Part shown: piece by piece, positions 20,955 to 46,943 of the stretch | Numbering within the stretch: position 1 is the stretch's first letter | Layout: every line of letters begins with the position of its first letter | DNA from: Sandaracinus amylolyticus | Lineage (GTDB): Bacteria; Myxococcota_A; Polyangia; Polyangiales; Sandaracinaceae | Direction: 5' to 3' | Assembly (NCBI RefSeq): GCF_000737325.1 | Contig: NZ_CP011125.1 | Span: 2,790,001 to 2,854,000, forward strand | DNA: 64,000 nucleotides | Notes under the pieces: generated by a model | The model's input: the letters and a program-made list of their open reading frames with translations, nothing else | The model's database searches: none | Told to the model about the DNA's origin: nothing | Position numbers and translations under genes: made by a program

Positions 20955-21298
20955 GTCGCGCGATTCGCGCGGAGCGGGCCGGACAGTGTCCCTACGGTCG
21001 CGCGGTTCGCACGCAGCGGGCCGGACACGTGGCGGGGGCGTTCCTGCGCATCGCAGGGAGTGGGCGGACACGCGTCCGGTGGGTTCCTGCGAATCGCAGG
21101 ACCGGTGCGGACACGTGTCTTGCGGGCCACTGGGCGCCGCAGGAAGCGCCCGGACGCGTGTCCGGTGGGCTCCTGCAGATCGCAGGAAGTGGGCGGACAC
21201 ACGTCGGGTGCGGTCCTGCGCATCGCAGGGTGCGCGCCGACACGCGTCGTGGGGCTTCCTGCGAATCGCAGGGAGCGTGCGGACACGCGTCGGGGCAC
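20955..21298. repeat. Tandem 43-bp array, each unit with two palindromes
   Basis: Six units of exactly 43 bases start at 21041, 21084, 21127, 21170, 21213 and 21256, preceded by two more diverged units of 42 and 44 bases from 20955 and 20997, and a fragment near 20923. Each unit carries a stem CCTGCGnATCGCAGG and, about eight bases later, a palindrome GGACACGCGTCC. Unit 3 is the most diverged in the first stem. The period is not a multiple of three, so the array is not coding. It fills most of the 559-base gap between the S10 peptidase gene and the next gene. Confidence 0.9.
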
Positions 21299-41097: not shown

Positions 41098-41440
41098 CTC
41101 TCAGGAGAGCAGGAGGGACTACGTCGCGTTGCGCGATGCGCCTCCGAGGGAGAGTTTTTGAGGAGAGCAGGAGGGTTAGGAAGACCACGTCGCAGCGCGA
41201 TCAGCGTCACTCGATGCGCTCGATGCGCCTCTCGGGAGACAGACGAGAGAGCAAAGCAGGTCGAGGTCGAGTGGAGAGAAGGGCGGCGCGGCAAGCGCGT
41301 CGATTTCTTCGCTCTCTCCTCTCCTGTCCTTCCTGCTCTCCTCAGAGGCACAAACTCCTGCTCTCCTCAGAGGCACAAACTCCTGCTCTCCTCGGCGGAG
41401 CTCCTGCTCTCCTCAGAGGGTCGGCTCCTGCTCTCTCCTC
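41098..41440. repeat. Cluster of the dispersed repeat: two forward and five reversed copies
   Basis: Forward cores: C1 (41098-41128, CAGGAGAGCAGGAGGGACTA) and C2 (41155-41192, TTTTTGAGGAGAGCAGGAGG then GTTAGGAAGACCACG). Reversed cores (CTCCTGCTCTCCTC) start near 41330, 41355, 41380, 41400 and 41425, as units of 20-25 bases with the linker AGAGGCACAAA in two of them. The cluster fills the 350-base gap between the convergent CBS and DUF2231 genes; the stop codon of the latter abuts it. Confidence 0.9.
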
Positions 41441-41441
41441 G

Positions 41442-42029
41442 TCAGGCGCGCGTCGGGCTGCCGTACGGCGGGGTGTCGGTGCGGACCGACTGGCGCGTCA
41501 CCACTTCCTCGCCCTCCACGACCGGCTCGCGGCGAACGCGCGCGACGTGCCTCCGGCGACCGAACAGCGAGCTCGGCGCGTCGGGATGCGCGTCCGGATC
41601 GACGCCGATCGCGAGCCGATCGACGAGCTCACCGCCCAGCCATCCGGTGATGCCCGCGAGCGCGAGGCCGCCGATCTCGAGCCACAGCGGGAGGCCCTCG
41701 ACGCCGAAGCGGTACTCGTCGGCGCGCAGGTAGAGCGCCGCCGTGAACAGTCCGAGCACGATCACGTTGCCGACGCCGTGCACGAGCCCGACGCGCTTGG
41801 CGCGCGTGCCGCGCGGGATCTTCGTGTAGTCCATCAGCCCGAACACCGCCGCGAGCAGCCCGGTGACGACGCCGATCGCGATGTTCCAGAACGAGACGAC
41901 CGTGATCGCGCGGTCGTCGAAGAACTGCGCGACGATGTCGAGCACGGCACCCGTCGCGAGCAGCCCGAACGGGATCGGGATCAGCATCTGGTGGATCGGG
42001 TGCCCGAAGAGCTTCGCTCTCGCTTCCAT
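41442..42029 (-). CDS. DUF2231 family membrane protein
   Basis: 195 residues with four membrane helices. The family start is clear: FGHPIHQMLIPIPFGLLATGAV, then VSFWNIAIGVVTGLLAAVFGLMDY, GNVIVLGLFTAALYLRAD and LEIGGLALAGITGWLGGELV. The histidine in GHPIH is the family mark; function unknown. A soluble C-terminal tail of about 45 residues is basic/acidic mixed. Terminates at the repeat cluster. Next gene upstream on the same strand is lgt. Confidence 0.88.
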   Translation of the reverse strand: MEARAKLFGHPIHQMLIPIPFGLLATGAVLDIVAQFFDDRAITVVSFWNIAIGVVTGLLAAVFGLMDYTKIPRGTRAKRVGLVHGVGNVIVLGLFTAALYLRADEYRFGVEGLPLWLEIGGLALAGITGWLGGELVDRLAIGVDPDAHPDAPSSLFGRRRHVARVRREPVVEGEEVVTRQSVRTDTPPYGSPTRA

Positions 42030-45360: not shown

Positions 45361-45456
45361 CGCACCGAGCCATTGGGCCCGCTCGCCCGAGGCCGCAACG
45401 CGCGGGGTTCAAATCCATCCAATCCGCGCGCCGCTGCGGGCGGTACGTCGGTGCGC

Positions 45457-45894
45457 ATGCAGACCCTCCACCGTCCGGCTCCGACGAGCCGGGTTTTGGT
45501 CCTCGTGCGCGCCGCGCTCGTCTCCGCCGCGCTCCTCGCGTGGCATGCGGCGCCTGCCGCGGCACAGGCTGCCGCGGGCGTGATCGCGACCGGCTCCGGG
45601 CGCGCCGGCGCGACGGTCGCCGCGCTGATCGCGCTCGCGTCGGTGATCACCGGCGGGTGGGCGACGGCGCGCGCCCACGGGCGGCTCGCGCGCGGCCACG
45701 CACGCGACGGAGCGATCGTCGCGCTCGTGCTCGCGGTGATCGGGATGGCGCTCGCGGCGCTGCACCTGGCCACCTCGACGGGCGCGGTCGGCACCGGCAA
45801 TGGGCGTGGCGGCGCGATCGTCGGCGTGGTGCTCGGGGTGATCGGCCTCGCGCTCGGGCAGCGCGCGCTCGCCCGCTCTGTCCGCACCGGGTGA
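45457..45894 (+). CDS. Small membrane protein, DUF6223-like
   Basis: 145 residues: a signal-like N terminus (VRAALVSAALLAWHAAPAAAQ), then three hydrophobic segments with glycine-rich loops (TVAALIALASVITGGWATARA, AIVALVLAVIGMALAALHLA, GAIVGVVLGVIGLALGQRALA). The pattern TGNGRGGAIVGVVLG and RGHARDGAIVALVLAVIG resembles the DUF6223 family, based on memory and so held with caution. Function unknown. It ends 19 bases before the 41-bp array. Confidence 0.65.
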   Translation: MQTLHRPAPTSRVLVLVRAALVSAALLAWHAAPAAAQAAAGVIATGSGRAGATVAALIALASVITGGWATARAHGRLARGHARDGAIVALVLAVIGMALAALHLATSTGAVGTGNGRGGAIVGVVLGVIGLALGQRALARSVRTG

Positions 45895-45912
45895 CCCTGA
45901 GCTGGGGGCGCG

Positions 45913-46150
45913 CCGCCAGACGAAATCGTCAGAAAGGTCGGTGTCGGCACCCTCCGCCAGACGAAATCGTCAGAAAGGTCGGTGTCGACACCCTCCGCCA
46001 GACGAAATCGTCAGAAAGGTCGGTGTCGACACCCTCCGCCAGACGAAATCGTCAGAAAGGTCGGTGTCGACACCCTCCGCCAGACGAAATCGTCAGAAAG
46101 GTCGGTGTCGACACCCTCCGCCAGACGAACTCGTCAGAAAGGTCGGTGTC
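45913..46150. repeat. Six-copy 41-bp tandem array, each unit with two palindromes
   Basis: Six nearly identical units; the mark GACGAAATCGTC begins at 45919, 45960, 46001, 46042, 46083 and 46124, an exact 41-base period. Each unit has this GACGA-AA-TCGTC stem and a perfect 12-base palindrome GGTGTCGACACC (GGTGTCGGCACC in the first unit). The sixth is truncated at GGTGTC and has GACGAACTCGTC. The period is not a multiple of three and there are no unique spacers, so it is neither coding nor CRISPR. It fills the gap between two convergent genes; the leftward gene's stop lies on its edge. Confidence 0.95.
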
Positions 46151-46943
46151 AGCCGCTCGGCTGCTCTCCGCCGCTCGGCGCGCGCCGCTGCGGGGCGGCG
46201 CGCACGCTGAAGAGCGAGGGGAAGAGCTCGTCGGGCTTGCTGTTCCGGTACATCGCGATGCCGAAGAGCCGGATCGGCTCGTAGGTCGTCGCCAGCACCC
46301 CGTACGAGCGGTTCACCGCGTCGGCCCAGGTGTGGTCGGTCGAAACGCCGAGCGCCGAGACGACGCGCGCCGCGAGCGAGCGGGCGCGGTCGACGTCGCC
46401 GGCGCGGTAGCGCAGCGTGTCGGCGGCGAGCGCGTCGGCGTGGGCGTCGTAGAGGGTCGCGAGCCGGCCGAGGTCGCTCGCGAGGTCGAGGTAGCCGACC
46501 CCGCTCACGATCGCGGCGAGCTCGCGCATCGCGGTCTCGTCGTCGGCGAGCACGTAGGTGACGACGCGGATCATCGTGGTCTTCAGCGCGGTGGCGTCGG
46601 CGACGAGCGCGGTGGGCAGCATCGCGTCGGGCGTGGTCGCGTCCTTGGTCTCGCGCTGCACCGCCGCGTGCCAGAGCGCCCAGGCCGCGGGCCCGAGGCG
46701 GTCGACGAGCTCGGCGGGCAGCTCCTTCTCGACGTGGCGGAAGCGCTGGCGCATCGGCGGCTCGGCGATGCGGCGCGCGATGCCGAGGGCGAGCACCGCG
46801 ACCTCGCGGAGGTCGAGGCGCGGCGCGACGTCGACGGTCTCGCCAAGCGCGCGCCGGGCTGATGCGAGCGAAGCGAACGCGCCTTCGCCGAGCTTCGCGT
46901 CGTACTGGATGGAGTCGTCAGGGGTCTTCTTGCGGGTGGCCAT
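46149..46943 (-). CDS. Hypothetical helical protein
   Basis: 264 residues, not recognised. The protein is mostly helical with ordered motifs (MRQRFRHVEKELPAELVDRLG, AAWALWHAAVQ, RVVTYVLADDETAMRELAAI). No signal or membrane segment. Codon use fits the neighbours, so it is a real gene. Its stop codon lies at the junction with the 41-bp array: the TGA spans the last array base. The C-terminal residues (APQRRAPSGGEQPSG) are low-complexity. Confidence 0.65.
   Translation of the reverse strand: MATRKKTPDDSIQYDAKLGEGAFASLASARRALGETVDVAPRLDLREVAVLALGIARRIAEPPMRQRFRHVEKELPAELVDRLGPAAWALWHAAVQRETKDATTPDAMLPTALVADATALKTTMIRVVTYVLADDETAMRELAAIVSGVGYLDLASDLGRLATLYDAHADALAADTLRYRAGDVDRARSLAARVVSALGVSTDHTWADAVNRSYGVLATTYEPIRLFGIAMYRNSKPDELFPSLFSVRAAPQRRAPSGGEQPSG

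Follow-up and report, generated by a model that had tools for sequence, protein, structure and literature searches.

The array-associated proteins of Sandaracinus amylolyticus and the tandem arrays that adjoin their genes probably form an undescribed kind of protein-plus-array system. The pairing is present at every paralogue in the organism's own genome and at many homologues across Myxococcota. Through it, intergenic arrays of constant period and changing sequence are linked to a protein family that lacks annotation and occurs in about one in four of the Polyangia genomes sampled, so that protein and arrays each gain a partner against which they can be tested. The question that arises is why the period stays at 41-43 bp when the sequence does not stay the same.

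The window array and its setting

The window is the whole 64,000-nucleotide stretch of DNA that was analysed, part of a single 10,327,335-base contig; the genome of S. amylolyticus DSM 53668 is 10.33 Mb (PMC5010890). The features discussed are the following.

21007-21295, no strand assigned: another array of the class, with 6.7 copies of a 43-bp unit and dyads CTGCGNATCGCAG and CGGACACGCGTCCG
45457-45894, plus strand: convergent neighbour, 145 aa, DUF6223 (PF19733), ending 19 bases before the window array
45913-46150, no strand assigned: family A tandem array (the window array), 5.8 units of 41 bp, consensus CCGCCAGACGAAATCGTCAGAAAGGTCGGTGTCGACACCCT
46149-46943, minus strand: gene of the array-associated protein (264 aa, predicted to be all-helical, of no known family), one of ten paralogues in the genome

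TRF places the window array at 45913-46150 with a period of 41, 5.8 copies, 98% matches and zero indels, and the identity at lag 41 is 99% across the 238 bp. The near-identical units and exact period given in a preliminary description of this DNA are borne out, as are its statements that the array is non-coding and lies in a convergent gap, with the stop codon (46149-46151) of the leftward gene 46149-46943 overlapping the array edge. The units run head-to-tail without unique spacers, so the array is not a CRISPR, also as described earlier. No array of lag 40-43 was found in 400 kb of locally shuffled DNA. The window array is real, beyond chance, and belongs to an undescribed class. The DUF6223 gene is, as far as the evidence goes, a bystander. 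Elsewhere in the window, a 25-bp repeat, TCCTGCTCTCCTCAGAGGCACAAAC, occurs in 3.7 copies at 41331-41419, just downstream of a minus-strand gene ending at 41442.

Each unit had been credited with two palindromes. Direct reading of the units finds them in most, but not all: GACGAAATCGTC is present in units 1-5, with unit 6 reading GACGAACTCGTC, and GGTGTCGACACC is exact in units 2-5, with unit 1 reading GGTGTCGGCACC and unit 6 truncated. Allowing 0-1 mismatch, GGTGTCGACACC has five matches in the window against 0.34 expected. Their strength is modest; the pair scores equal or exceed those of 96 of 100 unit shuffles, and a single unit as single-stranded DNA folds no better than shuffles (z -1.0).

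A class of arrays with a constant period

The class was surveyed in 100 blocks of 20 kb (2 Mb) spread across the organism's own genome, with the window counted in. Among the 32 intergenic tandem repeats of period 30-60 bp in this sample, 27 have a period of 41 bp (14 arrays), 42 bp (6) or 43 bp (7), and doubled periods of 82-86 bp are also present. The sequences of the arrays of period 41-43 are mostly unrelated to one another, and the number of units tends to about six. Arrays occupy 29% of convergent, 16% of co-directional and 6% of divergent gaps of at least 200 bp, and the comparison of convergent gaps with the rest (29% versus 12%) gives p 0.013, these gap classes being approximate since the genes were called by a simple codon-usage gene finder. 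The surroundings of mreB in other myxobacteria (0.33 Mb) and 0.93 Mb from other Desulfobacterota showed no such arrays. Not every array of the class has strong palindromes. A rule by which the whole unit is its own reverse complement was rejected, because it is significant against shuffled units and not against real intergenic chunks.

The array at 21007-21295 differs in sequence from the window family; it has relatives at 4723029, 5518545 and 7325999 and at three places in the congener, and no homologue of the array-associated protein lies beside it. Most arrays in the genome likewise adjoin no such homologue, and many of these gene-less arrays also have no sister array beside one in the 2-Mb sample. 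The neighbours of the other arrays in the sample are ordinary genes, with no second common family among them. A separate three-copy repeat family has a variable period of 82-101 bp and a long GC hairpin (CCGTCCGCGCGC..GCGCGCTCCCGTCCGG..GAGCACTCC). It occupies about ten places in the sample, including L158:13392-13821, L198:2073-2410, L200:2442-2815, L213:16105-16350 and L201:4545-4833, and one of its places is near the paralogue at 7702712.

Sister arrays and concerted evolution

A unit confined to this one place, which the preliminary description had said would count against it, is not what was found. In a DNA search, the family A unit forms three further arrays in the same genome, at 1536234, 4339214 and 9161360, and two arrays in the congener G002. 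One of the G002 arrays shares its flanks with the window array, of which it is the ortholog; the other is orthologous to the array at 1536234. Each family A array has about six units, which are alike inside a locus and different between loci, and the G002 ortholog differs from the window array by changes common to several of its own units. Judged from the sequences, this likeness within and difference between loci is the mark of concerted evolution, and the recent homogenisation proposed earlier is supported. Since one palindrome or both are disrupted in the sister arrays (GACGAAATGGTC at 1536234, GACCATTTCGTC at 4339214), the family A palindromes are not strictly kept.

With the unit profile and the core pattern, no isolated family A units were found in the organism's own genome, and nothing beyond chance was found outside the genus. 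The exact core was not found in 85k other genomes. DNA and protein searches of plasmids and phages gave no match to the window system, nor did a search of viral contigs.

The array-associated protein family

The 264-aa product of 46149-46943 has no match in Pfam, NCBIfam, PHROGs, PADLOC or the PDB. A whole-genome search identifies ten paralogues in the organism's own genome at E <= 2.7e-11. Members of the family are about 250-300 aa long and are predicted, with low confidence, to be helical, with ends that are flexible, charged or proline-rich. They are near-neutral to acidic (median pI 5.9) and share a conserved core around IRxGxGYxDLAxDLxRLAxxYR. No conserved catalytic histidines and no DNA-binding fold were recognised in the family, and none of 24 members has a transposase match; a single-sequence structure model, with a pLDDT of 38, was useless.

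The family is present in 45 of 193 sampled genomes of the class (Polyangia) and in 34 of 284 of the phylum, with at most 14 copies in one genome. Its distribution within Sandaracinaceae is uneven: genome G004 has 13-14 homologues, three of them in a row on one contig (C101:34238-37100), and G003, G005 and G007 have none. Downstream of the S. amylolyticus paralogue at 8905187 lies about 5 kb (L213:1-5132) in which the simple gene finder calls no genes, and which may hold atypical or decayed ones.

In six loci, three of them in the organism's own genome, the next gene downstream, on the same strand, encodes a P-loop ATPase that matches HerA_C and DUF87; the window locus lacks such a HerA-like gene. 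Short HerA/FtsK-like ATPase genes of this kind follow one protein subfamily (L330:2515-3840, L331:1-1380, L332:2529-3788, L358, L362 and L364).

Adjacency of genes and arrays

All ten paralogues in the S. amylolyticus genome have an array of period 41-43 or 82-83 in an adjacent gap. The background among other genes is 72 of 1637 (4.4%), rising to 70 of 408 (17%) for genes with a flanking gap of at least 250 bp; even on this strict background, the adjacency of 10/10 has a probability of about 2e-8. The window pair is one of the ten and led to the family, and dropping it changes little. In the 2-Mb sample, which had been taken blind to the family, its profile matched four genes, all of which adjoin arrays.

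Homologue loci in other Polyangia carry 41-43-bp arrays at eight times the background density. Arrays were called at 16 of 44 loci outside the organism's own genome, or 15 after removal of L347, whose call was a CCGTTG hexamer artefact; the 44 include contig-end fragments and near-duplicates and are not all independent. The median distance to the nearest array is about 66 bp, and all distances are below 370 bp. At homologue loci with no called array the commonest best lag is 42 (8 of 19), and therefore some of the arrays there have probably decayed. The side of the array varies, lying 3' of the gene, as in the window, about as often as 5'.

Matching of paralogues to array families

Arrays beside different paralogues are mostly unlike in sequence, and several have sister arrays of their own in the sample. 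The array of paralogue 7702712 is matched by L194, that of 8905187 by L160 and L150, that of 1046539 by L177 and L148, that of 8148527 by L182 and, weakly, that of 8058072 by L164. The related paralogues 8905187 and 1306900 have arrays with an exact 19-bp stretch in common, which contains one dyad. Within the genome, protein similarity and array similarity are correlated (rho 0.34, p 0.014); across genomes the correlation is absent. The matching is suggestive of cognate recognition, short of proof.

Proposed explanation

The preferred reading, to which we give an even chance, is that the window array and the gene 46149-46943 are a single unit, a putative DNA-binding protein with its phased binding array. 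The helical protein would recognise, in duplex DNA, the sequence of the units that make up its own array family. A period of 41-43 bp is close to four helical turns, so that successive units would present the same face, and the protein, or a complex containing it, may load cooperatively along the array. Gene-less sister arrays would offer that protein additional sites to bind. One subfamily has a HerA-like DNA-pumping ATPase encoded just downstream, which the loaded complex may recruit or orient. Recombination or slippage would homogenise the units and so keep them alike, and each family would drift in sequence while period and copy number stay.

A duplex-DNA target is favoured because the period equals four helical turns, fold potential is similar on the two strands (z -1.09 and -1.21, difference p 0.64), arrays lie on either side of the gene, and gene-less sisters exist. 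The mild acidity of the proteins counts against this reading, as do the failure to recognise a DNA-binding fold in them and a whole-unit palindromy that is not above that of real intergenic DNA. Also against it are the weakness of the protein-array correlation and its loss across genomes, the many arrays that adjoin no homologue, and the lack of a HerA-like gene at the window locus. Of the three roles proposed in the preliminary description, that of an array bound by a dimeric DNA protein is the best candidate and has indirect support from the neighbouring protein family. The earlier interpretation is supported in part, having missed the key role of the neighbouring gene and the fact that strong palindromes are not universal.

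More tentatively, and with somewhat less than even confidence, the reading may be extended to the whole genome. About ten paralogous helical proteins per genome would each recognise their own scattered family of four-helical-turn arrays, some with a dedicated HerA-like translocase, and the role could be in chromosome organisation, DNA processing or defence. If binding holds, the paralogues and their arrays would constitute, inside a single genome, a new and natural collection of protein-DNA specificity pairs, and perhaps, with the HerA-like motors, a new DNA-handling system. No description of such arrays was found within open-access literature, a scope that makes an earlier description possible, and in the paper on the S. 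amylolyticus genome the only repeats mentioned are CRISPR.

Alternative explanations

The arrays could instead be REP/BIME-like selfish or domesticated repeats, with the protein or a recruited host enzyme driving their amplification and dispersal, as is thought for RAYT. The layout is the same, namely a gene beside repeats, dispersed sister arrays and several gene-repeat families per genome, and roughly one RAYT gene in three is directly associated with BIMEs (PMC2817692). However, the HUH Y1 transposase (PF01797), present in five of 14 control genomes, is absent from the S. amylolyticus genome, and the protein family itself has neither a transposase match nor conserved catalytic histidines. 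The sister arrays are few (3-4 per family) and have diverged by 15-23%, which argues against a recent burst. Single units were not found, only arrays, four in the organism's own genome and two in the congener. An origin of this type is considered less likely than the preferred reading, and the protein may yet have a part in array mobility.

A second alternative places the action in RNA, with the transcribed array binding or inhibiting the protein as in type III toxin-antitoxin systems (ToxIN). The published anatomy of ToxIN, in which a gene has an adjacent array of near-constant-length repeats whose sequence varies between homologues (PMC8860590), resembles the present loci, with about 3-6 repeats beside a gene. 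In ToxIN-type loci the array is directly upstream of the toxin gene on the same transcript, whereas here arrays lie either 5' or 3' of the gene. Pseudoknot-free folding shows no strand bias; the window array has no Rfam match at E up to 1; and the structured RNA suggested in the preliminary description is not supported. Sister arrays adjoin unrelated genes, and sequence profiles reveal no relation of the protein to ToxN/AbiQ-type endoribonucleases in PADLOC, Pfam, NCBIfam or the PDB. Because the predicted strand and side preference is not seen, action through RNA is disfavoured and appears quite improbable. Least probable of all are passive satellites, arising by slippage in long promoter-less gaps and acting at most as transcript ends: although the enrichment of arrays in convergent gaps and their depletion in divergent ones agree with this and lend weak support to the bidirectional terminator proposed earlier, no terminator-like site (GC stem and T run) was found on either strand in 45400-46700, and both the fixed 41-43-bp period and the 10/10 adjacency to one protein family are left unexplained.

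Comparison with known systems

The preferred reading of a DNA-binding protein with its phased array has partial likenesses among known systems. RAYT/REP-BIME systems also have intergenic repeat families that are dispersed, and BIME-2 elements are tandem arrays of palindromic units. In the present case the protein is not an HUH Y1 transposase, and the repeats are confined to arrays with a constant period of 41-43 bp, of which each family has few; two defining features of the group, a flanking Y1 gene and a palindromic unit dispersed in many copies, singly or clustered, were not found. Type III toxin-antitoxin systems (ToxIN, AbiQ, TenpIN, CptIN) likewise have a gene that adjoins a small number of tandem repeats, each about 35-45 bp long, whose sequence varies by homologue. 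They differ from the system described here, which has array-only sister loci and a protein that is predicted to be all-helical and shows no relation to theirs in sequence searches. Bacterial minisatellites (VNTR, MIRU) are likewise homogenised intergenic tandem units, whereas the arrays of S. amylolyticus keep a constant period over many unrelated sequences and are tied to one protein family.
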